A DNA stretch of 64,000 nucleotides from Methylophilaceae bacterium (GTDB lineage: Bacteria; Pseudomonadota; Gammaproteobacteria; Burkholderiales; Methylophilaceae). The notes under the pieces are model-generated. The model made no database searches and was not told the origin of the DNA. It saw only the letters and a program-made list of their open reading frames with translations. Below, piece after piece: positions 6,841 to 22,434 of the stretch. The stretch is from assembly GCA_028823485.1 (NCBI GenBank), contig JAPKBG010000002.1, positions 62,001-126,000 of the forward strand. Direction: 5' to 3'. The stretch's first letter is position 1. Every line of letters starts with the position of its first letter. Made by a program: the position numbers and the translations under genes.

Positions 6841-8831
<1,991 letters not shown>

Positions 8832-8982
8832 TTAAAATAAAGCAATATTTTACCCTAGACCGCCCACTGAAAGCAGCTTTTATCGATTAAGTTAATGAGG
8901 GAGATGATTAAACTTTTTATTTTGAGTGCCGAGTGTTAAGTTATGACACATTAATTTTTTAATCATGGTTTAGCTGGGTTGA

Positions 8983-9444
8983 ATGATGCAAAAAGAGAAG
9001 AGCAGTCGTGCAGTGCTAGCGAAAAATCGTAATCAATTGATCGATTTAATGTTTAGCTCGAAATTAAAACGTGCAAATGAGGTTAAAGTCTATAAAGAGT
9101 TTGCTAGTGTGGTTACGTTTGTTGACCGTAAAAATAATGAACAAGCATTGATGGGTACCCTCATCCTCACAGACAAAGTGCTTGATGAAAGCGTAAAAGA
9201 TAAGCCAAGTAAAACGACTTCATTGCCTATTGGCAATGAGGATGGCAGTAACGAGATTAATAGTAGCCAAGTTACCGTTGAATTAGATGATGAGCCAGAT
9301 GAAAAATGGAAAAGTAATTATTGGGATAAGGTATATTTGATAAAGCTAAGAGTGTTACTTCAACCTTCGTGGAAGGTGGTAGTAATCATTGATTTAATTA
9401 ACGGCAAGCATATCCGTAAATTGTTGTACTGGTGTAGCTTCTAA
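8983..9444 (+). CDS. Hypothetical protein, C-terminus possibly altered by a deletion
   Basis: An open frame of 153 codons that I do not recognise. Its first two thirds are hydrophilic and lysine-rich (for example FSSKLKRANEVKVYKEF), with an acidic stretch ELDDEPDEKWKS near residue 105. The last 17 codons run antisense through the 3' end of the prpD remnant, so the natural C-terminus was probably lost at the rearrangement junction and replaced by read-through sequence. No ribosome-binding site is obvious before the ATG pair at 8983. It may be a real small gene, a fragment or a chance frame. Confidence 0.35.
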   Translation: MMQKEKSSRAVLAKNRNQLIDLMFSSKLKRANEVKVYKEFASVVTFVDRKNNEQALMGTLILTDKVLDESVKDKPSKTTSLPIGNEDGSNEINSSQVTVELDDEPDEKWKSNYWDKVYLIKLRVLLQPSWKVVVIIDLINGKHIRKLLYWCSF

Positions 9445-9903
9445 TTGTTTTTGATCTAAACATAGCGCCAATACATCTTTTTGTGTGCGCTCGTTAAAGC
9501 GCCTAGCTAAGTTTGTTTTGAATTTTTTCACCAGTTCAGGAATGCCTTCATCACGACGACGACGATGACCGATTGGGTATTCTACGGCAACCAGACTAGA
9601 GCTTGTTCCATCGGTGAAGAAGATTTGAATGGCATTGGCTATTGAGCGTTTTTCTGGATTGAGATAATCGGCAGTGTATTCCACCTTCTCTACACAAATC
9701 ATTTTTTCACGAATGGCATCAATTCTGGGGTCCGCAGCTGAAGCATCCTCATAATCAAGTGCTGTTAACTTGCCTTTTAGTAAACCAGTTGCCGATATAT
9801 ATTGGAGGCAATGGTCGCGGTCAGCGGGGTTATCTAACGGACCAGCTTTATCAATAATGCGAATGGCGGACTCATGTGTCGTCATCACGATTTTATCTAT
9901 ATC
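9394..9903 (-). pseudogene. prpD: 2-methylcitrate dehydratase prpD, 5'-truncated remnant
   Basis: About 170 residues match the C-terminal third of PrpD, which dehydrates 2-methylcitrate in the propionate-degrading methylcitrate cycle. Family blocks THESAIRIIDKAGPLDNP, RDHCLQYI, DPRIDAIREKM, YTADYLNPEKRSIANAI and VEYPIGHRRRRDEGIP are all present in order and in frame. Likeness continues a few codons upstream of the first ATG (DIDKIV) and then stops near 9903, with an in-frame stop at 9916-9918. PrpD is normally close to 480 residues, so about two thirds including the active-site region is missing. The C-terminus ends normally. The fragment cannot be an active enzyme. Confidence 0.88.
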
Positions 9904-9977
9904 CCATAAGTATACTCAGTTAGAAAATGTAAGTTATAGGGTGATTATATAAAGGCCCTTCTTGAGCTGTAAACATT

Positions 9978-10000
9978 TATCTTATGTCTTATATAAGATA
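9978..10000. promoter_or_regulatory. Inverted repeat upstream of the GntR gene, possible operator
   Basis: Eight-base arms TATCTTAT and ATAAGATA flank a 7-nt spacer, and a perfect 12-bp palindrome TCTTATATAAGA (9987-9998) lies inside. It sits 90 bp before the GntR-family start, between it and the truncated prpD, where a regulator of a divergent prp operon would bind. Function is inferred from position and symmetry only. Confidence 0.4.
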
Positions 10001-10091
10001 TAAAATACTAGGTTACTTTATTTTGCTATGTTTAAATAGTTTTGCCTGAAAGAATAATGGCATTAAAGATGGAATTAAGGATAAAAATGTG

Positions 10092-10823
10092 ATGGTAGAT
10101 ATAAGTTCACCTAATTACAGACCGCTATACGAGCAAATAAAGGTACTGTTAACGCAGAGCTTGATTGGGGGTGAGTGGCGTCCGGGCGACGTGATTCCTA
10201 GTGAGATTGATTTGGCTGGCCGCTATAAAGTGAGTCAAGGGACGGTGCGTAAGGCAATTGACAGTCTTGCCGGTGAAAATATTTTAATTCGCAGGCAAGG
10301 AAAAGGAACTTATGTTGCTACGCATAATGAAGAAGGTGTTAAGTTAAGGTTTCTGCGACTAACAGCAGCTAGCGGACAAAAAGAGGTCCTTAATAGTGAG
10401 CAGGTTGGCTATAAAAAAGTAAAAGCAGATGCACATAAGGCGGGTATTTTGCAAATAAAAGCAGGTTCTATATTAATAGAGGTAAAGCGGTTGTTAACGT
10501 TTTCTGGAAGGCCGTTAATTTACGATCATATTGCGATTCCTGCAGCGCCATTTAAGGGCTTGAATGCGGCGCGAATAGAAGAGAATAATGGCTCAATGTA
10601 TAGCATGTATGAAACGGAGTACGGTGTTCGTATGATTCGTGCGGAAGAACGATTGACTGCTATAGCGGCTTCTGCGGAGGTGGCTGAGGCGCTGCACCTG
10701 GAATTGGGTGCACCCCTGTTAAGTATTGAGCGTGTTTCATATACGTATGGGGATAAGCCAATGGAATGGCGTTTGGGTTTGTGCTTGACGGATGACCATC
10801 ATTATATGAGTGAACTTGAGTAG
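10092..10823 (+). CDS. GntR/HutC family transcriptional regulator
   Basis: A 243-residue repressor-type regulator. The N-terminal winged helix (about 1-70) shows PLYEQIKVLL, PGDVIPSEIDLAGRYKVS and the recognition helix QGTVRKAIDSLAGENI followed by RRQGKGTYV. The C-terminal UTRA ligand domain (about 90-240) has the usual IYDHIAIP and LSIERVSYTYGDKPMEWR blocks. HutC-type regulators sense a pathway metabolite. Here the first downstream gene is a malic enzyme 20 nt away, and a prpD remnant lies divergently upstream, so control of a propionate/C4-acid locus is a reasonable inference. A GTG three bases before the chosen ATG is an alternative start. Confidence 0.9.
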   Translation: MVDISSPNYRPLYEQIKVLLTQSLIGGEWRPGDVIPSEIDLAGRYKVSQGTVRKAIDSLAGENILIRRQGKGTYVATHNEEGVKLRFLRLTAASGQKEVLNSEQVGYKKVKADAHKAGILQIKAGSILIEVKRLLTFSGRPLIYDHIAIPAAPFKGLNAARIEENNGSMYSMYETEYGVRMIRAEERLTAIAASAEVAEALHLELGAPLLSIERVSYTYGDKPMEWRLGLCLTDDHHYMSELE

Positions 10824-10843
10824 GGTAATCGAAAGGCTAAACA

Positions 10844-12043
10844 ATGGATGATTTAAAAAAACGCGCGCTTGATTACCACCAATTTCCGATACCGGGAAAG
10901 TTAAGTGTGGAATCTAGAAAGCCCTGTGAGACGCAAGATGATTTGTCGTTAGCCTACTCACCTGGCGTCGCTGCACCTGTACGTGAGATTCATGACAACC
11001 CAGAGAATGCCTATAAATATACTAATAAAGGCAATTTGGTGGCAGTGATTACTGATGGAACTGCTGTTTTGGGTCTGGGAAACATGGGTCCGCTTGCTAG
11101 CAAGCCTGTCATGGAAGGTAAAGCCGTTTTGTTTAAGCATTTTTCGGGTATTGATGTGTTTGATATTGAAATCAATGCGAAAACGCCAGATGAGTTTATT
11201 CAAACAGTGGTCAATATCGCGCCCACATTTGGTGGTATTAATTTAGAAGATATTGCCGCTCCACACTGTTTTTATATTGAAAATGAATTGAAAAAAAGAT
11301 TAGATATTCCTGTATTTCATGATGATCAGCATGGCACGGCAGTGATTGTTGCAGGCGCGTTATTGAATGCACTTGAAGTACAAGGGAAAACGTTACCAAC
11401 CGCAAAAATTGTATTTTTAGGAGCAGGTGCTGCTGGTTGCTCATGTGCGAAATTACTCAAACTAATGGGCGCAACCAACATCACTATGGTCGATAGAATG
11501 GGTGTGCTGGATACTGATCGTAAAGAATTACATGACAATAATCGTGAGTTGGCGATTCAGTCAACAGATTCAAAAACACTGGCAGATGTCATGCCTCAAG
11601 CGGATGTGTTTATTGGCGTATCAGCTAAAAATGCATTGAACCCAGCGTTGGTAAAAGAAATGGCTAAGAATCCAATTATTTTTGCCTTAGCTAATCCCGA
11701 TCCTGAAATTTTACCTAGCGTAGCGCATGGTATTCGAGATGATGTTTTGATGGCGACAGGGCGTAGTGATTTCCCTAACCAAGTGAATAACGTTTTGTGC
11801 TTTCCCTATTTATTTAGAGGTGCGTTGGATGCAAAAGCGACAAAAATTACCGAAAAAATGAAAATGGCTGCAGCTTATGCATTGAGTGAGTTAGCACGCG
11901 AGCCTGTACCAGCCGATGTTCTGAAAGCGTATAACTTGAAAGCACTAGCCTTTGGTAAAGACTATATTATCCCCAAGCCTATTGATAAGCGTTTATTAGA
12001 CAAAGTTGCAGGTGCTGTTGCGGAGGCAGCGGGAGCGGAATGA
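10844..12043 (+). CDS. Malic enzyme, short form
   Basis: An oxaloacetate-decarboxylating malate dehydrogenase of 399 residues converting malate to pyruvate, CO2 and NAD(P)H. It has the N-terminal malic domain ([24 protein letters not shown] with the metal site) and the NAD-binding domain ([17 protein letters not shown]). It lacks the C-terminal phosphotransacetylase-like extension of long MaeB proteins. The nucleotide motif suggests NAD or NADP but does not decide between them. With succinate dehydrogenase and fumarase downstream it completes a route succinate-fumarate-malate-pyruvate. Its stop overlaps the sdhC start by four bases. Confidence 0.95.
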
Positions 12044-12420
12044 TGCAAAGAAAACGGCCTGTTAAAAACCTTGATTTATTCACCATTCGCTTACCCATTA
12101 ATGCGGTAGTGTCGATTATGCATCGAGCAGCAGGCATTGTTTTATTTTTGTTGTTGCCTCTGATGTTAATCGCATTTCAACAGTCATTGGCATCCGAAGC
12201 TAGCTACTTGGCGTTGCAGCAGCTATTTAGCCATTGGCTGATTAAACTATTTTTTATTGCTAGTTCTTGGGCTTTTTTCCATCATTTTTATGCGGGTATT
12301 CGTCATTTTCTACAAGACGTTCACTGGATGAGTAGCCTAGAAAAGGCACGATTGACTGGCCGTGTTGTGTTGGTGCTGGTTGGGTTATCTATTTTGTTGT
12401 TTGCATGGAGTATTTTTTAA
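12040..12420 (+). CDS. sdhC: Succinate dehydrogenase cytochrome b556 subunit
   Basis: A membrane anchor subunit of complex II, 126 residues with three transmembrane helices (about 27-47, 67-85 and 104-124). The opening RPVKNLDLFTIRLPINAVVS and HRAAGIVLFL are the SdhC signature, and the heme-ligand histidine lies in HHFYAGIRHFLQD. With SdhD it holds heme b and the quinone site in the cytoplasmic membrane. Two adjacent ATG codons (12040, 12043) follow a GGGAG; the second has the better spacing. Expression is probably coupled to the malic enzyme gene through the four-base overlap. Confidence 0.94.
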   Translation: MMQRKRPVKNLDLFTIRLPINAVVSIMHRAAGIVLFLLLPLMLIAFQQSLASEASYLALQQLFSHWLIKLFFIASSWAFFHHFYAGIRHFLQDVHWMSSLEKARLTGRVVLVLVGLSILLFAWSIF

Positions 12421-12465
12421 TATGTATTTAGCCTCCTTACATTTGGCTATTAAACAAGGCTGTAA

Positions 12466-12813
12466 ATGATTATTGAATTGTTAACGAGCAAGTATCCAGG
12501 CATGCGTATATGGTTGTCGCAACGGATAACGGCAGTCGTGATGGCCGTCTACAGTGTGCTGCTTATTGTTGCTTTATTGATAGTTAGTCCAGATGGCTAT
12601 GCTGCATGGTCTGATTTTGCCAGTAGTTTTCTATTTAGGATCAGTACTTTTTTATTTTTTATTTGTCTGAGTGTGCATGCTTGGATCGGTGTGAGGGATG
12701 TGTTGCGCGATTACATTTTCAATCAAACTTTACGCACCTATCTGCAAGTCATGGTTGATTTGTTGCTGGTGATCTATGTGGTTTGGCTTTCAATTATTCT
12801 TTGGGGTTTATAA
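12466..12813 (+). CDS. sdhD: Succinate dehydrogenase hydrophobic anchor subunit
   Basis: The second membrane anchor of complex II, 115 residues with three transmembrane helices (about 18-38, 52-70 and 92-113). The conserved GMRIWLSQRITAVVMAVY segment forms the N-terminal quinone-side region, and HAWIGVRDVLRDYIF carries the heme-ligand histidine and a conserved Arg-Asp pair. It works with SdhC to bind ubiquinone and anchor SdhA and SdhB. The gene lies 45 nt after sdhC, and its stop codon is immediately followed by the sdhA start, giving the standard C-D-A-B order. Confidence 0.93.
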   Translation: MIIELLTSKYPGMRIWLSQRITAVVMAVYSVLLIVALLIVSPDGYAAWSDFASSFLFRISTFLFFICLSVHAWIGVRDVLRDYIFNQTLRTYLQVMVDLLLVIYVVWLSIILWGL

Positions 12814-14571
12814 ATGGCATTAGAACAACATCAGTTTGATACCGTTATTGTCGGCGGCGGTGGCGCTGGATTGCGTGCTGCTTTAGAGTTGGCAGAATCT
12901 GGTGCGGAAGTGGCTGTGCTTTCCAAGTTGTTTCCTACACGCTCACATACCGTGGCGGCACAAGGCGGTATTGCAGCATCGCTAGGCAATGTGGCTGAAG
13001 ATAAGTGGATTTGGCACATGTATGACACCATTAAGGGTTCGGACTTTTTAGGCGACCAAGATGCGATTGAATTCATGTGTAAAAATGCCGCAAAAGCCAT
13101 TATTGAGTTGGAGCATTTTGGGATGCCTTTTGACCGTTTAGAGAACGGTAAAATATTTCAGCGGCCATTTGGTGGTATGACGAAAAACTTCGGCGAATCA
13201 GAGATTTCACGCACCTGTGCGGTAGCTGACCGAACAGGTCATGCCATGTTGCATACCCTTTATCAGCGTAACGTAAAAGCTAAAACAAACTTCTTTGTGG
13301 AGTGGTATGCCTTAGATTTAATTCGCAATCCAGAGGGTGATGTGGTCGGTGTGCTTGCCTTGCAAATTGAAACAGGCGAGATTCATATTTTCCAAGCAAA
13401 AACAACTTTACTAGCAACGGGCGGCGCAGGCCGGATTTTTCAAGCGAGTACGAATGCATATGCGTGTACTGGCGATGGTTTAGGCATGGCAGCACGTGCT
13501 GGGATACCGTTGCAAGACATGGAGTTTTGGCAGTTTCACCCAACTGGCGTATTGCATGCAGGTGTACTGGTTACGGAGGGTGTGCGTGGTGAAGGTGGTT
13601 ACTTGGTTAACAGTGAAGGTGAGCGCTTTATGGAGCGTTATGCGCCAACCGCAAAGGACTTGGCTAGTCGCGACGTCGTTTCACGCGCATCAGCTACTGA
13701 AATTAAAGAGGGGCGAGGCGTCGGTAAAAATAAAGACGCCGTGTATTTAAAACTCGACCATCTAGGCGCTGAAATTATTGATCAGCGTTTACCTGGCATA
13801 CGAGAAATTGCGAAAAAATTTGCGAATGTTGACCCTGTTAAAGACCCTATTCCTGTCGTGCCAACAGCGCATTACATGATGGGTGGTTTGCCAACCAATA
13901 TTAATGGACAAGTCGTGGTACCTGATGGCAATGGTGAAAAGGTTGTGAACGGGTTATATGCAGTGGGCGAGTGCGCTTGTATATCGGTGCATGGCGCTAA
14001 CCGGCTTGGATCTAACTCATTGCTAGATTTGGTGGTGTTCGGCAAACAAGCTGGCAACCATATTGCAGCATTTGTTAAAACCAATAAAACGCATCAACCG
14101 CTGCCAAAAGACGTTGGTGAGGCGACTTTGCAAAGAGTGAATCGCTTCCATAAGGCTGAAGGTGAAAATATGATGCAAACACGGGTTGATATGCGTAAAA
14201 CCATGCAAAGTAATTGTGGTGTCTTTCGCTTCCCAGACTTGTTAGCTAAAGGTGTGGCAGAAATTGATACCATCGCTAAACGAGTAGAAAGCCTTGTGAT
14301 TAACGATAAAAGCAAAGTGTTTAATACGGCTCTGGTAGAGGCATTGGAACTCGACAATATGATTGAGGTTGCGGTAGCCACAATGCATACAGCACACAAT
14401 CGCACAGAAAGCCGCGGCGCACATGCGCGGGAAGACTTTGAAACACGCGATGATAAAAACTGGCTGACCCATTCGCTTTATTATAAATATGGTCAAAAAA
14501 TCAGCTATAAGCCTGTGCGCTTGCAACCACTCACTGTTGCGTCATTTGAACCCAAAGCGAGAGTTTACTGA
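12814..14571 (+). CDS. sdhA: Succinate dehydrogenase flavoprotein subunit
   Basis: The catalytic subunit of complex II, 585 residues, oxidising succinate to fumarate with covalently bound FAD. The FAD dinucleotide fold is [17 protein letters not shown], and the flavin-attachment histidine is in [15 protein letters not shown]. The dicarboxylate site blocks [10 protein letters not shown] and [18 protein letters not shown] are complete, as is the C-terminal RGAHAREDF. It resembles proteobacterial SdhA throughout and has normal length. The next gene is sdhB, one base after the stop codon. Confidence 0.97.
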
Positions 14572-14572
14572 T

Positions 14573-15334
14573 ATGAAACTATCTATTTATCGGTTTGACC
14601 CTGATGTTGATGAAAAACCCTATATGCAAGATTACGAAGTCGAGTTGCAAGAAGGCGATAACATGCTATTGGATGCATTGTTACGTGTGAAGCATCAAGA
14701 TGATTCGATGAGCTTGCGTAAATCTTGTCGTGAAGGTGTTTGTGGCAGTGATGCGATGAATATTAATGGTAAAAATGGTTTGGCTTGTATTACCAGAATC
14801 GCAGATTTAACGGAGCCAGTAATCGTCAGGCCATTACCAGGGTTGCCAGTGATACGTGACCTTGTAGTCGACATGACGCAATTTTATGAACATTTTAATT
14901 CGGTTGACCCATATCTTAAGAACGATGACTCTCTGCCAGAAACTGAACGCTTACAAAGCCCAGAAGATAGGGCGAAGTTGGATGGCTTGTACGAGTGTGT
15001 TCTGTGTGGTGCTTGCACGACTTCATGCCCTAGCTTTTGGTGGAATCCAGATAAGTTTGTTGGCCCTGCTGCGCTGTTACAAGCCTATCGATTTATTGTT
15101 GATTCAAGAGACCATGCAGAAGCTGAGCGTTTAGAGAATCTAGAAGATCCTTATCGTTTATATCGTTGTCATAACATTATGAATTGCGTTGAGGTTTGCC
15201 CTAAAAAGTTAAGTCCTAATGCAGCAATTGTTGCGATTAAAGATTTGAAAATCGAACTCTCAAAAGAGCGTGGTGAAGATAAGCCAGCAAAAAAATATTT
15301 GGAATTAAGTTGGGTTGAATATGAAAAACGCTGA
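14573..15334 (+). CDS. sdhB: Succinate dehydrogenase iron-sulfur subunit
   Basis: The electron-transfer subunit of complex II, 253 residues, passing electrons from FAD to ubiquinone through three clusters. The [2Fe-2S] ligands lie in SCREGVCGSDAM and the following Cys of GLACI; the [4Fe-4S] and [3Fe-4S] ligands lie in CVLCGACTTSCPSFWW and CHNIMNCVEVCPK. The start is the ATG at 14573, matching the usual N-terminus; an upstream in-frame start would lie inside sdhA. Its last 14 bases overlap sdhE. Confidence 0.97.
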   Translation: MKLSIYRFDPDVDEKPYMQDYEVELQEGDNMLLDALLRVKHQDDSMSLRKSCREGVCGSDAMNINGKNGLACITRIADLTEPVIVRPLPGLPVIRDLVVDMTQFYEHFNSVDPYLKNDDSLPETERLQSPEDRAKLDGLYECVLCGACTTSCPSFWWNPDKFVGPAALLQAYRFIVDSRDHAEAERLENLEDPYRLYRCHNIMNCVEVCPKKLSPNAAIVAIKDLKIELSKERGEDKPAKKYLELSWVEYEKR

Positions 15335-15593
15335 AAGTATCAAAGACGCTGAACAGCGACGTCTAGCTTGGCGTTGTAGGCGAGGTATGTTGGAAATCGA
15401 TATCGTTTTACAGAAATTTGTTACTACTTATTTTAATGAACTCACATTAACGGAGTTAGAATCATTTGATGAGTTGTTAGCCATGACGGACAAAGATCTT
15501 TGGAATGTTCTCAGCATGAAAAATCTACATTTAAAAAGTGAACTGCAGCAATCAATTGTTGATAAGTTGCAGCATTTACAAACGGTTGATTAA
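15321..15593 (+). CDS. sdhE: FAD assembly factor SdhE
   Basis: A small cytoplasmic chaperone of 90 residues that promotes covalent attachment of FAD to SdhA. The signature RRGMLEIDIVL, an RGxxE motif, is intact, and the remaining helices match the YgfY/SdhE fold (LTELESFDELLAMTDKDLW). It overlaps the end of sdhB by 14 bp, so the two are coupled. The ATG at 15321 is preferred to a TTG six bases upstream. Its stop codon lies inside a perfect 9-bp inverted repeat. Confidence 0.93.
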   Translation: MKNAESIKDAEQRRLAWRCRRGMLEIDIVLQKFVTTYFNELTLTELESFDELLAMTDKDLWNVLSMKNLHLKSELQQSIVDKLQHLQTVD

Positions 15594-15614
15594 TGAGCAA
15601 GTTCTTCATTAATC
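15588..15614. repeat. Inverted repeat at the end of sdhE
   Basis: Nine-base perfect arms GATTAATGA and TCATTAATC with a 9-nt loop overlap the sdhE stop. There is no T-run after it, so it is more likely a transcript-stabilising or partial attenuating hairpin than a full terminator. Confidence 0.45.
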
Positions 15615-15635
15615 AATAACTAGAGAGAGTATTTT

Positions 15636-16455
15636 ATGAGTGAAAATAAAAGAAAGGGTAATGCAAATTTAGGCGATTATTGGCCAGGTATTCAGCTGTA
15701 TTATCCACCTGTAAAATATGCCCCAAGTTTAGGTATTTATGAGGATATGAAGCAAGCGGCTGCTAGAATGGTTAGGCATGCGTACTATAGGCCATACACT
15801 TATTTTTGACTTGGAAGATGGTTGTCGCCAAAAAGAAATGAGTGAGTTTTCCTACTATTTAAGCCAAAGCCAATATCGACCAATACGGCCAGGATCGGCA
15901 GGCTTTCCACAGCTCGGACACTATATTAAATTGCTTAATCCTGATACCTTGGAAGAAGTCGAAATAGGTGTTGAGGGAATGATTAGTGTGCCATTAGACG
16001 ATCCAGGTATCTTTTTAAATTACTGGAATATGCCAGAAGAGACTGCTAAATATAAGCATGATGGCTACTTCTTTACAGGAGATTATGTAAAATACGATGA
16101 TGAAGGCTATATTTGGTTTTTAGGTCGAAAAGATGACATTATTAAAAGCTTTGGTTATCGTGTTTCGCCTTATGAAATTGAGCGCGTTTACAAAGGGCAT
16201 GCTGACGTTGCAGATTGTGCTGCCATTGGCGAGGAAATTGAAAAAGACAAGTTGCTAGTGGTCATTTATGTGATTCTAAAACCAGAAGCAAAAACAACAC
16301 CTGATGAATTGCAGGCTTATGGCAAACAGCATTTAGCCGCATATAAATCGCCTAAAACGGTTTATTTGGCTAACGATTTTCCATGTACAAAAAATGGTAA
16401 AATCTTGCGTAAAGACATTAACCCTGAAATGGCGACTGCAAAATCCTCAAGATGA
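15636..16455 (+). pseudogene. Composite pseudogene: CitE-like lyase 5' end joined to acyl-CoA synthetase 3' end
   Basis: The first part (ATG at 15636) encodes a CitE/HpcH-type CoA-ester lyase N-terminus (NLGDYWPGIQLYYPPVKYAP). A frameshift near 15775 moves the reading to another frame, which continues with the lyase motif LIFDLEDGCRQKEMS. At about 15840 the protein switches without a stop to the C-terminal third of an acyl-CoA synthetase: FSYYLSQSQYRPIRPGSAGF, YFFTGDYVKYDDEGYIWF, GRKDDIIKSFGYRVSPYEIE and the A10 lysine motif NGKILRKDI. The ATP-binding core of the synthetase and the lyase barrel are both missing. The stop overlaps the fumarase start (ATGA), so downstream coupling survives. It is most simply a deletion scar between two former genes. 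Confidence 0.85.
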
Positions 16456-17975
16456 CGACAATTAAACAATCAGACTTTATTCAAAGTATCGCAGACGCAC
16501 TGCAATACATTTCCTACTATCACCCTAAAGACTATATTGATGCCTTGGGTGATGCTTATGAGCGAGAAGAATCAACAGCGGCAAAAGATGCGATTGCGCA
16601 GATTTTGACCAACTCGCGAATGTGTGCGGAAGGTAAGCGACCAATATGCCAAGACACTGGCATTGTTGTTGCTTTTGTCAAAGTAGGTATGGACGTTCAA
16701 TGGGATGCTATCTTAGATATTGAGCAAATGGTGAATGAGGGTGTGAGACGCGCTTACTTATTACCAGAAAATAAATTACGCGCCTCTATCGTTAATAATC
16801 CTGCGGGAAAGCGTGTCAATACGGGTGATAATACACCAGCAGTGGTGCATGTGAGCTTGGTTGCAGGTGATCGCGTAGAAATCAAAATTGCTGCCAAAGG
16901 TGGCGGTTCTGAGAATAAAGCCAAATTCGCGATGCTCAATCCGTATGACAGCATCGTGGATTGGGTGTTAGACGTTGTGCCTCAGATGGGTGCAGGCTGG
17001 TGCCCTCCGGGAATGTTGGGTATCGGTATCGGAGGTAGTGCAGAAAAAGCCATGTTGATGGCAAAAGAATCGTTAATGGAGCCGATTGATATACAGGTGT
17101 TGAAAGAAAAAGGTGCGAGTAACCGTATTGAAGAGTTGCGGCTGGAGTTGTACGAAAAAGTGAATAATTTAGGTATAGGCGCACAAGGATTGGGCGGATT
17201 AACGACCGTATTGGATGTGAAAATAATGGATTACCCAACCCATGTCGCTAGTTTACCTGTGGCAATTATTCCGAATTGTGCGGCTACTCGGCATGTGGAA
17301 TTTACGTTAGATGGCACAGGTGTTGCTGCATTAACACCGCCAAGTTTGGATGATTACCCCAAGGTGAATTGGGCGCCGAGTGCAGAGGCAAAACGAGTGG
17401 ATTTGAATACGGTCACAAAAGCCGAAACGCAAACATGGCAAACTGGGCAGACCTTGTTGCTAAGTGGGCAATTATTAACAGGACGTGATGCTGCACATAA
17501 ACGCATTGCAGATATGATTGCCAAGGGTGAAACGTTGCCAGTGGATTTTAATAATCGATTTATTTACTATGTTGGCCCTGTTGATGCAGTAGGTGATGAA
17601 GCGGTTGGCCCTGCTGGGCCGACAACAGCAACCAGAATGGATAGCTATAGCGATATGATGCTAGATGCTGGTTTGTTAGGCTCAGTCGGCAAGGCGGAGC
17701 GAGGTGACGCGACATTGGCTTCAATAGCGAACCATCAATCAGTGTATCTAATGGCTGTTGGCGGTGCTGCGTATTTGGTCAGCAAAGCGATTAAACAGGC
17801 TAAAGTGCTGGCGTTTGCAGATTTAGGCATGGAAGCGATTTATGAGTTTGATGTGGTGGATATGCCAGTGACAGTTGCAGTGAATGCAACAGGTGAGTCA
17901 GTGCATCAATCTGGGCCCGCATTTTGGAAAGAAAAAATTGCACAACAGACCATTGATATTAAGCCAGTTGATTGA
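16452..17975 (+). CDS. Fumarate hydratase, class I (iron-sulfur)
   Basis: A 507-residue oxygen-sensitive [4Fe-4S] hydro-lyase interconverting fumarate and malate. The three expected cysteines are visible in KRPICQDTGIV, GAGWCPPGMLGIGIGG and IPNCAATRHVEF. The N-terminal alpha and C-terminal beta halves are fused in one chain, and the C-terminal GPAGPTTATRMDSYSD block is intact. It shares no likeness with class II FumC. Placed between the sdh genes and aconitase, it supplies the middle step of the succinate-to-malate branch. Its ATG overlaps the stop of the upstream composite pseudogene. Confidence 0.95.
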   Translation: MTTIKQSDFIQSIADALQYISYYHPKDYIDALGDAYEREESTAAKDAIAQILTNSRMCAEGKRPICQDTGIVVAFVKVGMDVQWDAILDIEQMVNEGVRRAYLLPENKLRASIVNNPAGKRVNTGDNTPAVVHVSLVAGDRVEIKIAAKGGGSENKAKFAMLNPYDSIVDWVLDVVPQMGAGWCPPGMLGIGIGGSAEKAMLMAKESLMEPIDIQVLKEKGASNRIEELRLELYEKVNNLGIGAQGLGGLTTVLDVKIMDYPTHVASLPVAIIPNCAATRHVEFTLDGTGVAALTPPSLDDYPKVNWAPSAEAKRVDLNTVTKAETQTWQTGQTLLLSGQLLTGRDAAHKRIADMIAKGETLPVDFNNRFIYYVGPVDAVGDEAVGPAGPTTATRMDSYSDMMLDAGLLGSVGKAERGDATLASIANHQSVYLMAVGGAAYLVSKAIKQAKVLAFADLGMEAIYEFDVVDMPVTVAVNATGESVHQSGPAFWKEKIAQQTIDIKPVD

Positions 17976-17983
17976 GTCAAGCG

Positions 17984-18013
17984 CAATGTGCCTAAGGTCA
18001 CATTGATTAGGCA
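17984..18013 (+). promoter_or_regulatory. Two overlapping, mutually exclusive hairpins after fumarase
   Basis: CAATGTG (17984-17990) pairs with CACATTG (17999-18005), while TGCCTAA (17989-17995) pairs with TTAGGCA (18007-18013). The two stems share bases and cannot form together. No T-run follows. This could be a processing site or a simple attenuator before the EF-hand and aconitase genes; the role is unproven. Confidence 0.35.
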
Positions 18014-18063
18014 CTAAATGGATTAATCTCAGTCAAAATGGTAGTATGAATTGAGGTGAAAAT

Positions 18064-18366
18064 ATGAATAATTTAGCGAAACTATGGTTGCTGTTGGCTT
18101 TGTTGATGAGCGTATCGTTCGGGCATGCTATTGAGATGCTGGATTACTTAACTGATGCTGATGGAAAGTATGCTGGCCCTAGTGTGGAAGACAATATTGC
18201 CAAAATGGATACCGACCATAACGGCTTTGCAGATGTAGCGGAAGTGCGTGCTTTTTTAGAGCTTAAACACGGAGCGGGTTATCAAAAATCATTGCTAGAT
18301 AGGTGGGAAGTAGCTGCCAATACGACAAGTTGCGGCACATCATTTGCCAAAGAATTAATTGAATAG
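18064..18366 (+). CDS. Secreted EF-hand-like protein
   Basis: A 100-residue protein with a signal peptide (about 1-22, ending FGHA) and one clear calcium-loop motif DTDHNGFADVAEV at about 49-61, with Asp, Asp, Asn and Glu-type spacing of an EF-hand. A lone Cys lies near residue 91 (TSCGTSF). It is probably periplasmic and may bind calcium. No specific function is known to me. It sits between fumarase and aconitase on the same strand but is not an obvious member of that pathway. Confidence 0.8.
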   Translation: MNNLAKLWLLLALLMSVSFGHAIEMLDYLTDADGKYAGPSVEDNIAKMDTDHNGFADVAEVRAFLELKHGAGYQKSLLDRWEVAANTTSCGTSFAKELIE

Positions 18367-18419
18367 AAACCATAGAAAAACCATTTTAGAAACCTAGTGT
18401 AGGAAAAGAAATAAACCTT

Positions 18420-18536
18420 ATGATTGAAGTATATCAAGACCATGTATTAGCGCGCGAAGCACACAATTTACCATCATTGTTAACTGTTCATTTTGCTAAT
18501 AGCCAAGTGAACATTGAAATCGAGATGTGGCAATGA
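18420..18536 (+). CDS. Possible 38-residue leader or aconitase-like N-terminal scrap
   Basis: A short frame starting ATG at 18420 ends TGA at 18534-18536, overlapping the aconitase ATG at 18533 (ATGA). Its beginning, MIEVYQDHVLAREA, faintly resembles the N-terminus of ordinary AcnB (M-L-E-x-Y-x-x-H-V). It could be the stub of a lost aconitase copy or a translated leader that couples translation to acnB. The resemblance is short and may be chance. Confidence 0.3.
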   Translation: MIEVYQDHVLAREAHNLPSLLTVHFANSQVNIEIEMWQ

Positions 18537-21331
18537 GTTTATATCAAGCATACTTAGATGAAATAGCAGCCCGCAAAAGCGAAGGCTTAAATCCTAAGCC
18601 GATTGATACCGCTGAGTTATTGGCCGAAATCATTACGCAGATTAAAGAGCCAGCGCACAAACACCGTGAAGATTCACTCAAGTTTTTTATCTATAACACC
18701 TTGCCTGGTACGACGAGTGCCGCAGCAGGTAAAGCCGCATTTTTAAAAGATATTATTCAGGGTAAATCTGTTGTTGAAGAAATCACGCCAACCTTTGCGT
18801 TTGAGCTGTTATCACATATGAAAGGTGGGCCTTCTGTTAATGTGTTGCTGGACTTAGCTTTGTCTGATGACCAATCAGTGGCAAACCCTGCGGCAGATGT
18901 ACTTAAAATGCAGGTGTTCTTATACGAAGCTGATACCGAGCGACTAGAAACTGCTTATAAAGCGGGCAATATGATTGCCAAAGCCATTTTAGAAAGTTAT
19001 GCCAAAGGCGAGTTTTTCACCAAATTACCTGATATCCCAGAAGAAGTTCAAGTGGTGACTTATGTTGCTGGCGAAGGTGATATTTCGACTGATTTGCTTT
19101 CTCCAGGCAATCAAGCGCACTCGCGTTCCGACCGTGAGCTGCATGGAAAATGCATGATCTCCCCAGCAGGGCAGCAGGAAATCATAGATTTAAAGGCGCA
19201 ACATCCGGGTAAAAAAGTGATGTTGATTGCTGAAAAAGGCACGATGGGCGTGGGTTCATCGCGCATGTCTGGTGTGAATAATGTTGCATTGTGGGCAGGT
19301 GAACCAGCGAGCCCTTATGTGCCGTTTGTGAACTTCGCACCGGTTGTAGCGGGGACAAATGGTATTTCTCCTATCTTCTTGACGACTGTTGACGTGACGG
19401 GTGGTATTGGTCTTGATTTGAAAAACTGGGTGAAAAAGATCGATGCACAAGGTAATACCGTTAAAGATGGAGGTGGTGACCCTGTCTTAGAGCAGGCCTA
19501 TTCAGTCGATACAGGCACGGTATTGACCATCAACACGAAAGAGAAAAAACTTTATAACGGGAATAAAAAATTGGCTGATATTTCTTCAGCCTTTACGCCA
19601 CAAAAAGTGGAGTTTATGAAAGCCGGTAGCTCTTATGCCATTGTCTTTGGTAAAAAGCTACAAACACTTGCTGCGACAATCTTAGGCGTTGAACTGCAAT
19701 CTGTTTACGCACCTGCTAAAGAAATCTCGAATGCAGACCAAGGTCTCACTGCTGTTGAAAAAATCTTCAACAAAAATGCCGTGGGCGTTAACTCTGATGC
19801 ACCTTTGCATGCAGGCTCTGATGTGCGTGTGAGCGTGAACATTGTTGGCTCACAAGACACGACAGGCTTGATGACCTCGCAAGAATTAGAATCAATGGCG
19901 GCAACCGTTATTTCACCAACCGTGGATGGTGCTTATCAATCTGGCTGTCATACGGCATCTGTTTGGGATAATAAAGCGCAAGCGAATATCCCAAGGCTAA
20001 TGAAGTTTATGAATGACTTTGGTTTGATTACCGCTCGCGACCCTAAAGGTGTTTATCCGCCATTAACTGATGTGATTCACAAAGTATTGAATGACCTGAC
20101 GATTGATGACTGGGCAATTATTATTGGTGGCGACTCGCATACCAGAATGTCAAAAGGAGTCGCTTTCGGAGCGGACTCTGGTACGGTTGCGCTAGCGTTA
20201 GCAACAGGTGAGGCGACCATGCCGATTCCTGAATCTGTCAAAGTGACGTTTAAAGGTGAGATGAAGTCTTACATGGACTTCCGCGATGTGGTGCATGCGA
20301 CCCAATCACAGATGTTAAAAACCTTTGGTGACAATGTGTTCCAAGGTCGTGTGATTGAGGTGCATATCGGTACATTATTAGCCGACCAGGCCTTCACCTT
20401 TACCGACTGGACGGCTGAAATGAAAGCCAAAGCCTCTATCTGCATTTCTGAGGATGCGACCTTAATTGCATCATTGCAACTGTCTAAAAGCCGTATTCAG
20501 ATCATGATTGATAAAGGTATGGACAATGCCATACAAACACTGCAAGGTCTGATTGACTTGGCAGACAAACGTATTGCAGAAATTAACTCGGGTGAAAAAC
20601 GGGCTTTGGCACCAGATAACAATGCCAAATATGCCGCTGAAGTTGTGATCGACTTGGATCAAATTGATGAGCCAATGATTGCTGACCCAGATGTTTATAA
20701 CGAAGATGTTTCTAAACGCTACACGCATGACACCATCAGACCGATTTCTTACTACGGTGGTACAAAAGCCATTGATCTGGCTTTCGTCGGCTCTTGCATG
20801 GTGCATAAAGGCGATATGAAAATCATCTCGCAAATGCTACAAAACCTTGAAGACCAAAACGGTAAGGTTGAATTTAAAGCGCCATTGGTGATTGCGCCGC
20901 CAACCTACAATATCGTTGATGAGCTTAAAGCAGAAGGCGACTGGGATATTTTAACTAAATACTCAGGCTTTGAATTTGATGATGAAGCGCCTAAACAAGA
21001 AGCCCGCACCCAATATCAAAACATGATGTATCTTGAGCGTCCAGGCTGTAACTTATGTATGGGTAATCAGGAAAAGGCTGAAAAAGGCGATACTGTGATG
21101 GCAACATCAACGCGCCTTTTCCAAGGCCGTGTTGTAGAAGACTCTAACGAGAAAAAAGGCGAGTCATTATTGGCTTCTACCCCTGTGGTCGTGTTGTCAG
21201 CGATACTCGGCCGTACGCCAACTATGGGTGAGTACAAATCAGCAGTTAAAGGTATTAACTTGACTGACTTTGCACCACCAGTTGAAGCGATGACGACTGA
21301 GCCTAGTGTTAACGCGATACAAATTCATTAG
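18533..21331 (+). CDS. acnB: Aconitate hydratase B / 2-methylisocitrate dehydratase, long form
   Basis: A [4Fe-4S] dehydratase of 932 residues interconverting citrate and isocitrate; AcnB enzymes also hydrate 2-methyl-cis-aconitate in the methylcitrate cycle. Iron-sulfur ligands appear in SGCHTASVWD, GSCMVHKGDM and RPGCNLCMGNQEK, and substrate or backbone motifs in IIGGDSHTRMSKG and STRLFQGRV. It is about 65 residues longer than E. coli AcnB and clearly divergent from it (N-terminus MSLYQAYLDEIAARK). The ATG at 18533 fits that N-terminus better than a GTG six bases earlier. A strong terminator follows, closing the cluster that begins with the GntR gene. Confidence 0.94.
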   Translation: MSLYQAYLDEIAARKSEGLNPKPIDTAELLAEIITQIKEPAHKHREDSLKFFIYNTLPGTTSAAAGKAAFLKDIIQGKSVVEEITPTFAFELLSHMKGGPSVNVLLDLALSDDQSVANPAADVLKMQVFLYEADTERLETAYKAGNMIAKAILESYAKGEFFTKLPDIPEEVQVVTYVAGEGDISTDLLSPGNQAHSRSDRELHGKCMISPAGQQEIIDLKAQHPGKKVMLIAEKGTMGVGSSRMSGVNNVALWAGEPASPYVPFVNFAPVVAGTNGISPIFLTTVDVTGGIGLDLKNWVKKIDAQGNTVKDGGGDPVLEQAYSVDTGTVLTINTKEKKLYNGNKKLADISSAFTPQKVEFMKAGSSYAIVFGKKLQTLAATILGVELQSVYAPAKEISNADQGLTAVEKIFNKNAVGVNSDAPLHAGSDVRVSVNIVGSQDTTGLMTSQELESMAATVISPTVDGAYQSGCHTASVWDNKAQANIPRLMKFMNDFGLITARDPKGVYPPLTDVIHKVLNDLTIDDWAIIIGGDSHTRMSKGVAFGADSGTVALALATGEATMPIPESVKVTFKGEMKSYMDFRDVVHATQSQMLKTFGDNVFQGRVIEVHIGTLLADQAFTFTDWTAEMKAKASICISEDATLIASLQLSKSRIQIMIDKGMDNAIQTLQGLIDLADKRIAEINSGEKRALAPDNNAKYAAEVVIDLDQIDEPMIADPDVYNEDVSKRYTHDTIRPISYYGGTKAIDLAFVGSCMVHKGDMKIISQMLQNLEDQNGKVEFKAPLVIAPPTYNIVDELKAEGDWDILTKYSGFEFDDEAPKQEARTQYQNMMYLERPGCNLCMGNQEKAEKGDTVMATSTRLFQGRVVEDSNEKKGESLLASTPVVVLSAILGRTPTMGEYKSAVKGINLTDFAPPVEAMTTEPSVNAIQIH

Positions 21332-21399: not shown

Positions 21400-22434
21400 A
21401 TGGAACCAGATTTTTGGCATAAAAAATGGGAAGATAATGTGATTGGTTTTCACAAAAGTGAAGTGAATCATTTATTGGTGAATCACTTTTCGCTATTAGC
21501 TTTACCAAAAGTGGGGCGCGTGTTTGTGCCGCTATGTGGTAAAACGCTGGATATTGACTGGCTGTTAGAAAGTGGGCATGGTGTGGTTGGTGTTGAACTA
21601 AGCGAAATCGCTGTTAAGCAACTTTTTGCCGAGCTCAATTTAACGCCCATCATTACTCAGAAAGACGCACTTATTCATTACAGTGCAGACGATATTGATA
21701 TTTACGTTGGGGATATTTTTCACCTCACAAAAGCATTATTAGGCCCTATTGATGTTGTTTATGATAGAGCCGCGTATATCGCTTTACCTTGGGAAATGCG
21801 CCAACGCTATAGTCAGCATCTCATTGCCATCACAGGCAATGCAACACAGCTACTCATTACATTAGCATACGATCAAAGCCTACAACAAGGCCCGCCATTT
21901 TCCATTAGCAATCCAGAGCTAAACCAACAATATCAGCAAATTTATGATATTACATTGCTATCGAGCCAAGCGTTGGAAGATGGTTTGAAAGGACAATACC
22001 CAGCTGTGGAAAATGTTTGGATGTTGAAAAAGGCACTTAAAAATCAGATCTTTGATAACAAAGCCATTCAGCCGCCGATGCGCGGCAAGTGGAAAGTGAT
22101 GTTACCCGTACTTATTTTATTCGGAGCGGCTGCTTTCTTAGTTTACCAATACAACGTAGACGTGAGGTTGGCGACCGCTGGTGCTGTTTTGGCTGGCTTT
22201 TATACAGGCTTAATTACATGGCTACTCGGCGTGATTACCTTGGTGCCTATCATCGGTCCGCTATTGATTAAAGTGCTCACCATGTCGTTCATATGGCTGC
22301 TCAATGCCGTTGGTTACTTGGTCGCTTACATTGCTATTAAGCGAGGTTACTCTAAAGATGTGCTCACCTACCGAGGCATTACCATCGCATTAATTATCGG
22401 CTTAGTGATTGGCTATGTCTTAGGTAGCCTATAA
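21400..22434 (+). CDS. TPMT-like S-methyltransferase fused to a membrane domain
   Basis: A 344-residue two-part protein. Residues 1 to about 212 match the thiopurine S-methyltransferase family: FWHKKWEDNVIGFH at the start, the SAM site RVFVPLCGKTLDIDWL (40-55), GVELSEIAV, and YDRAAYIALPWEMRQRY. Relatives methylate thiols, selenium or tellurium species and are normally about 220 residues. Here the frame continues after a short linker into roughly 115 hydrophobic residues with about four predicted membrane helices (about 233-249, 258-275, 278-310, 326-343). The fusion would tether the enzyme to the inner membrane. There is no stop or internal RBS between the parts. The second domain is not one I can name. 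Confidence 0.82.
   Translation: MEPDFWHKKWEDNVIGFHKSEVNHLLVNHFSLLALPKVGRVFVPLCGKTLDIDWLLESGHGVVGVELSEIAVKQLFAELNLTPIITQKDALIHYSADDIDIYVGDIFHLTKALLGPIDVVYDRAAYIALPWEMRQRYSQHLIAITGNATQLLITLAYDQSLQQGPPFSISNPELNQQYQQIYDITLLSSQALEDGLKGQYPAVENVWMLKKALKNQIFDNKAIQPPMRGKWKVMLPVLILFGAAAFLVYQYNVDVRLATAGAVLAGFYTGLITWLLGVITLVPIIGPLLIKVLTMSFIWLLNAVGYLVAYIAIKRGYSKDVLTYRGITIALIIGLVIGYVLGSL

Follow-up and report, generated by a model that had tools for sequence, protein, structure and literature searches.

A stretch of 64,000 nucleotides from a Methylophilaceae bacterium (assembly GCA_028823485.1, contig JAPKBG010000002.1, positions 62,001 to 126,000; C27:62001-126000 in our numbering), called the window below, carries the methylcitric-acid-cycle (MCC) cluster of this family, cut by two deletions. 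The source genome, designated G000, comprises 1.64 Mb in 30 contigs and is 86% complete. Eight genes are removed or broken: cyl1, maoC, cyl2, prpB, prpC and prpD by one deletion, cyl3 and prpE by the other. It is very probable that the locus represents an MCC cluster after loss of its propionyl-CoA module, with a retained core that probably converts succinate to pyruvate.

Two deletions in the methylcitric-acid-cycle cluster

Between positions 7437 and 22434, the window contains in this order purB, a prpD fragment, gntR, the malic enzyme gene, sdhCDAB-sdhE encoding succinate dehydrogenase (SDH) and its SdhE protein, a lyase/ligase scar, class I fumarase, a gene for a 100-aa protein, an AcnB-family aconitase gene and a TPMT-like gene (Table 1). 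The initial annotation, made from this sequence, had described the clustering of gntR, malic enzyme, sdhCDAB-sdhE, class I fumarase and AcnB, a 5′-deleted prpD divergent from the regulator and a deletion scar among the cluster genes, and all three observations were confirmed. The prpD piece matches TIGR02330 at positions 299–468 of 468 only, and just the C-terminal Pfam domain is present. The scar was identified as the 5′ end of an HpcH/HpaI-type lyase gene (cyl3) fused to codons 344–548 of an acyl-CoA synthetase gene (prpE).

The ancestral arrangement was revealed by comparison of six genomes of the same genus including G000 (completeness of the others: G041 99%, G042 98%, G043 90%, G040 76%, G044 48%). 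In G041, G042 and G043, prpD-prpC-prpB-cyl2-maoC-cyl1 adjoins purB and is divergent from gntR-malic enzyme-sdhCDABE-cyl3-prpE-fumarase-(100-aa protein)-acnB. The TPMT-like gene follows acnB in G042 and G043, and the G041 contig stops within acnB. Prp genes thus lie at this site in all three relatives, as the initial annotation of the locus as a former prp cluster presupposed. A short contig of G040, cut at both ends, carries cyl2-maoC-cyl1 plus gntR-malic enzyme-sdhCD-sdhA; its gntR match is split into two pieces with a gap (L056:2552-3290). Queries with fumarase, SdhA, GntR, MaoC and Cyl3 all remained without a match in the incomplete G044.

A blastn comparison with the three loci showed that the window is collinear with them except for about 6.05 kb missing near 9900–9907 and about 1.94 kb missing at 15838–15843, both sizes by G041. 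According to the junction alignment, the first deletion took cyl1, maoC, cyl2, prpB, prpC and two thirds of prpD; it spares the region upstream of gntR, and PrpD is kept from residue 320 onward. The second deletion brought the beginning of cyl3 together with the 3′ part of prpE at a 6-bp repeat, ATGAGT, and one unit of a 5-bp repeat was also lost from the cyl3 remnant, which shifted its frame. Gene order and flanks thus agree with those of the relatives, apart from the two deletions, an exchanged aconitase and extra DNA beside purB, and the locus is no chance resemblance to an MCC cluster. That prp genes were never present in G000 is ruled out by the remnants on both arms. The initial annotation, which had noted the absence of prpB and prpC and the broken prpD, was borne out in this respect and understated the loss, as lyase, hydratase and CoA-ligase genes are also gone.

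No fusion protein is expected at the first junction, where the cyl1 start codon appears to lie in a different frame from the prpD remnant and to be followed shortly by a stop. At the second, the frames agree, but the upstream 5-bp contraction shifts the cyl3 part. A cyl3′-prpE′ product could arise only from an internal start, in a 225-aa open reading frame at 15778–16455. The 3′ end of prpE overlaps the start of fumarase in both G000 and the more distant family member G160, whose copy has in-frame stops, and tblastn gave no prpE match at the loci of G163, G077, G120, G105 and G012. This 3′ end may be retained for translational coupling to fumarase.

Table 1. Coordinates of the reduced MCC cluster and its flanks within the window.
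Feature	Position	Strand	Remarks
purB	7437..8813	-	left flank of cluster, likewise in same-genus relatives
prpD remnant	9397..9900	-	tblastn: residues 320-487 of the 487-aa G041 PrpD; without N-terminal domain
deletion 1 junction	9900..9907		~6.05 kb by G041; inside of prpD joined to cyl1 start codon
conserved palindromic site TATCTTATGTCTTATATAAGATATA	9978..10002		upstream of gntR; possible GntR operator, putative role
gntR, GntR/UTRA regulator	10089..10823	+	
malic enzyme	10844..12043	+	
sdhC	12040..12420	+	
sdhD	12466..12813	+	
sdhA	12814..14571	+	
sdhB	14576..15334	+	
sdhE (Sdh5 family)	15315..15593	+	
cyl3 remnant, N-terminal part	15636..15843	+	5-bp repeat contraction shifts frame near 15782
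deletion 2 junction	15838..15843	+	~1.94 kb; 6-bp ATGAGT, present on both sides in G041
prpE remnant	15838..16455	+	residues 344-548 of 548; frame open as far as the prpE stop, which overlaps fumarase start
class I fumarase	16452..17975	+	sole fumarase found in assembly
100-aa protein	18064..18366	+	conserved between fumarase and aconitase in relatives
stub of classical acnB start	18420..18478	+	coordinates approximate
divergent 934-aa AcnB	18527..21331	+	replaces classical 863-aa AcnB; common to G041
TPMT-like gene	21400..22434	+	right flank in G042 and G043 too

The missing functions were sought in the whole assembly, in searches that covered prpB, prpC, the PrpD N-terminal domain, MaoC, Cyl3 and 2-oxoglutarate dehydrogenase. 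G000 yielded no prpB match, whereas the cut-off was passed in 110 of the 187 family genomes. No prpC exceeded the cit_synth_II cut-off; the sole citrate synthase match, at C12, scored 346.7 bits against 421.3 and looks like the second (gltA-type) copy carried by relatives. The PrpD N-terminal domain and MaoC were not found in assembled G000, nor was Cyl3 at E ≤ 1e-60. The E1 component of 2-oxoglutarate dehydrogenase (OGDH) was detected in none of the 187 family genomes, G000 included, and in 7 of 14 control genomes. The initial annotation had named prpB, prpC, a second prpD and OGDH as the genes to look for, and the assembly proved to hold none of them at the thresholds used. As eight genes are removed or broken, G000 is most likely unable to run the MCC, and its gene content points to a loss of propionate use. 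Besides the one class I fumarase, two Lyase_1 proteins were found, PurB and one read as argininosuccinate lyase; the Lyase_1 search revealed no class II fumarase in the assembly.

The aconitase of the window is AcnB-like, as first annotated, and proved to be a replacement rather than the ancestral cluster AcnB. This 934-aa protein scores 374 bits on TIGR00117, for which the cut-off is 1287, and passes NF006690. Among 25 stretches compared, it occurs only in the window and in G041. The classical 863-aa AcnB was found in G043, G077, G103, G120, G124, G160, G163, G173 and G042, and the remaining stretches have neither or end before the gene. Upstream of the window aconitase, roughly 20 codons from the beginning of the classical acnB are kept, so the gene was exchanged in place before the split of G000 and G041. 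Because G041 has the swapped aconitase and yet retains its prp genes, the swap was not part of the MCC loss.

At the flanks, about 630 bp separate purB from the prpD remnant (8817–9450), compared with about 85 bp in G042; a 153-aa open reading frame located there has neither a Pfam match nor a relative in the compared family loci. The TPMT-like methyltransferase has a C-terminal stretch rich in hydrophobic segments, and in several relatives only this C-terminal part (about residues 214–344) matches at the site.

Recurrence of the reduction within the family

Among the 187 family genomes, 113 have both prp and SDH, 13 have SDH without prp (G000, G012, G017, G019, G021, G045, G077, G105, G106, G120, G124, G160 and G163), four have prp without SDH (G079, G107, G130 and G157) and 57 have neither. 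The 13 genomes with SDH lack prpB, a full-length prpD, maoC and cyl3. Presence was scored at cut-offs of 1e-100 for SdhA, 1e-50 for GntR, 1e-40 for fumarase and MaoC and 1e-60 for Cyl3. The 113 prpB genomes include three with fragments (G011, G134 and G170) besides the 110 that exceeded the cut-off; at E ≤ 0.001, 117 genomes match. Weak matches in G010, G044, G048 and G146 were not counted, nor was the prpD remnant of G000 taken as prp. The gntR set holds 120 genomes, or 121 with the omitted partial match of G040. Restricting the count to 119 high-quality genomes gave 78 with prp and SDH, seven with SDH only, two with prp only and 32 with neither; the two prp-only genomes, G079 and G157, are fragmented, and their cluster contigs appear to end beside the missing genes.

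Maps obtained by tblastn showed several degrees of reduction. The prp arms are gone and gntR-malic enzyme-SDH-fumarase kept in G000, G124, G163 and G012. In G160, gntR is gone as well, and in G077, G120 and G105 both gntR and malic enzyme are gone from the locus. SDH is missing and fumarase adjoins purB in G112, G116, G131 and G137; G128 is the same without purB in its stretch. Remnants of the prpE 3′ end lie just 5′ of fumarase in G160 (L054:11652-11852) and G124 (L053:7899-8111). The genomes do not bear out one fixed order of erosion, as G017, G019 and G021 keep gntR-malic enzyme-SDH and show no class I fumarase. In G045 and G106, SDH stands in another gene context; at the SDH locus L048 of G045, a 3.2-Mb genome, sdhA and sdhB are about 3.3 kb apart and have no MCC-cluster neighbours. 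In the small genomes G080, G082 and G094 of group g15, fumarase adjoins aconitase and SDH was not found. One g15 genome, G083 (54% complete), has prp and SDH, while the other members gave no prpB or prpD matches; it is either an early branch or a binning error.

A tree was built from fumarase, SdhA, SdhB and AcnB of 90 of the 187 genomes, which were chosen by hand and enriched for reduced ones (G040 and G167 omitted; quick search, with the Shimodaira-Hasegawa-like approximate likelihood ratio test, SH-aLRT, as only support). Its 90 rows require at least 15 changes of prp presence. Groups that mix reduced and intact genomes at SH-aLRT ≥95 are G000 with G041, G021 with G002, G017/G019 with G023, G160/G163 with G171, and G105 within g16; G124 lies, at the same threshold, within a clade of 20 rows, 18 of them intact. 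We count these as about six supported losses, independent of one another if no regain took place. The change count itself gives no direction, which is provided by the remnants for G000, G124 and G160. These results show that the prp arms were lost repeatedly in the family while the C4 core often stays. The initial annotation had viewed the loss as strain-level: it did occur on the G000 branch after the split from G041, but strain level cannot be shown with one genome per species, and similar reductions in several lineages mean that the event is not singular.

Constraint on the remnants and the retained genes was compared between G000 and G041 by counting amino-acid changes unique to either genome; G042 and G043 served as outgroups. 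For the remnants of prpD and prpE together, the ratio of such changes (G000:G041) was 20:8, and for 11 further genes it was 95:115. The difference (Fisher p=0.015) weakly indicates relaxed constraint on the remnants. In gntR, of which 166 codons only were compared, malic enzyme and the sdh genes, the summed changes were 51:52, without a clear excess on the G000 branch. Both remnants are free of stops, in 167 compared codons of prpD and 205 of prpE. As these frames are still open, either the loss would be recent or the fragments would be of some use; the simplest reading is that the genes were lost recently compared with the divergence from G041.

The retained core and alternative explanations

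SDH, fumarase and malic enzyme together convert succinate to pyruvate. According to the mechanism that we propose, two deletions would have removed the propionyl-CoA module from the MCC cluster, and malic enzyme, SDH, fumarase and the GntR regulator with the site beside it would remain as a working unit which probably oxidises succinate via fumarate and malate to pyruvate. As OGDH was not detectable in the family, succinate and fumarate would derive mainly from by-products of biosynthesis. Succinate arises in lysine and methionine synthesis, and fumarate via PurB and ArgH. The retained genes may hence serve in C4 salvage. For an OM43 strain, it has been reported, in the part of the paper considered here, that SDH behaves unlike other genes of the tricarboxylic acid (TCA) cycle and that how it fits into central metabolism is unknown (PMC5120137).

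The palindromic 25-mer upstream of gntR may be bound by GntR as an operator. Its second-best place in the window matches at 18 of 25 positions. It is identical in two of seven other reduced loci (G124 and G163), the remaining five matching at 18–20 positions, and in six of 11 unreduced loci (G040, G042, G061, G108, G123 and G173), the rest matching at 18–24. As 200 base shuffles of each upstream region gave best scores of 16–19, matches of 18–20 mean little alone; the loci concerned keep all or nearly all of the core TCTTATATAAGA.

Several points weigh against our interpretation. The test for relaxation is based on 28 changes, and the synonymous divergence (dS) is saturated, which leaves the loss undated; the open remnant frames may equally reflect fragments of some use. 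The order of erosion is not uniform, as G017, G019 and G021 demonstrate. Some reduced genomes are incomplete (G021 68%, G017 and G105 81%, G124 84%, G160 87%), and as G000 itself is incomplete, there is a small chance that a relocated prp module is unassembled. In the tree, the outgroup does not form one side of a branch, ten rows have less than half of the columns filled (including G017, G019 and G021) and four have an unusual letter composition (including G012).

An alternative which we regard as unlikely, though worth serious consideration, accepts the loss as real and denies that the retained genes form a C4 route: fumarase and aconitase would have been kept for different functions, and the next losses would be gntR, malic enzyme and SDH. 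It agrees with the presence of fumarase in 161 of the 187 genomes, including 38 that lack both prp and SDH, with the absence of gntR and malic enzyme from the loci of G077 and G120, and with the five genomes G112, G116, G128, G131 and G137 that keep fumarase without SDH. It is opposed by the 51:52 ratio of changes in gntR, malic enzyme and sdh, by the identity of the site upstream of gntR in G000, G124 and G163, by the presence of the intermediate state in several genera and by G017, G019 and G021, which kept gntR-malic enzyme-SDH though class I fumarase was not found. The suggestion of the initial annotation that the C4 part was kept as useful on its own is supported by C4 genes that show no clear excess of change; fumarase may be kept as the only fumarase detected rather than for the C4 route.

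Far less probable is an artefact of assembly or binning, with a chimeric contig and a real population that has an intact cluster. The 30-contig, incomplete assembly would allow it, but across both junctions the two flanks and the retained genes keep the order seen in relatives, and a direct repeat, a common signature of deletion, lies at the second junction, with a separate frameshifting contraction in the nearby cyl3 remnant. Moreover, protein change is somewhat raised in the remnants, comparable reductions are seen in other genomes and prpE remnants persist in G124 and G160. Scarcely credible is the view that the core is ancestral and some lineages gained the prp arms by later insertion, which would make relatives lacking prp primitive: the arms border the core cleanly, G163 and G012 have a core without detected remnants and the tree counts give no direction, but truncated prp or cyl pieces at ancestral positions in G000, G124 and G160 and the nesting of reduced rows beside intact sisters contradict it for G000 and make it possible only for remnant-free lineages.

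Possible function of the lost arms and relation to known systems

The lost genes are closely associated in the family. Among the 187 genomes, prpB and maoC occur jointly in 112, maoC alone in four and prpB alone in one; prpB and cyl3 occur jointly in 110, cyl3 alone in two and prpB alone in three. The repeated joint loss is functional evidence that cyl, maoC and prpE act with the MCC, and it suggests that these genes and prp constitute one pathway into the cycle.

Sequence comparison gave mixed indications of their activities. MaoC is a full-length relative of 8hgn, deposited as beta-methylmalyl-CoA dehydratase (360 bits), and scores higher against 4e3e (419 bits), a MaoC-domain protein without assigned function; it matches the Pfam mesaconyl-CoA hydratase family, yet stays far under the cut-offs of the NCBIfam hydratase models matched. 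The nearest PDB entry of Cyl1 is malyl-CoA/beta-methylmalyl-CoA lyase 5ugr (132 bits) and that of Cyl2 is the putative citrate lyase 3qqw, and Cyl3 weakly resembles CitE-like lyases of the PDB. 'PrpE' passed no curated cut-off among the 25 models listed.

We tentatively put forward, as a possibility that is rather improbable in its entirety, that the eight lost genes form one pathway from a C5 dicarboxylate (e.g. mesaconate) via beta-methylmalyl-CoA to propionyl-CoA and glyoxylate, continued by PrpC, PrpD and PrpB, and that the retained GntR core, governed by the same regulator, is selected in its own right for succinate salvage. In this pathway, 'PrpE' would act as CoA ligase, MaoC as a mesaconyl-CoA-hydratase-like enzyme and Cyl1 to Cyl3 as CitE/malyl-CoA-lyase-like enzymes. 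The C5 substrate is a guess by family resemblance.

The MCC gene set of Methylotenera and Methylophilus is given in the part of PMC4109929 available as prpCBD, cyl1, maoC, cyl2, gntR, mdh, sdhABCD, cyl3, prpE, fum and can. Compared with that cluster, the window has the same genes, order and both neighbours for all that remains, and differs by eight deleted or broken genes and, in G000, by the replaced classical aconitase. According to the portion of Salcher 2019 considered (PMC6794327), the MCC is lacking throughout 'Ca. Methylopumilus', whereas Methylotenera, Methylophilus, 'Ca. M. turicensis' and OM43 possess it; a 2025 paper states, in the part considered, that it is present in most of its Methylotenera genomes (PMC11978286). 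G000 resembles the streamlined genomes of 'Ca. Methylopumilus' in the loss of the MCC from a Methylophilaceae lineage, whereas the persistence of gntR, malic enzyme and SDH is an intermediate not described in that portion (PMC6794327). It likewise resembles methylotrophs with an incomplete TCA cycle, as portrayed in excerpts of PMC4109929 and PMC5120137, in that no OGDH E1 was found, and differs in that its SDH, fumarase and malic enzyme still form one cluster behind a regulator. Among the open-access titles and abstract openings listed, neither a reduction of the cluster to a gntR-malic enzyme-sdh core nor a mesaconate route in these bacteria was found.

As MCC loss in 'Ca. Methylopumilus' is already published, G000 is a variant of known reductive evolution. 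It adds an intermediate in which both junctions can be read, together with the repeated loss of the arms and the near-perfect co-occurrence of prpB with maoC and cyl3 over the family. The substrate of the MCC in Methylotenera-type bacteria is described as unknown in the part of PMC3728764 considered; the proposed C5 pathway, if true, would name it.

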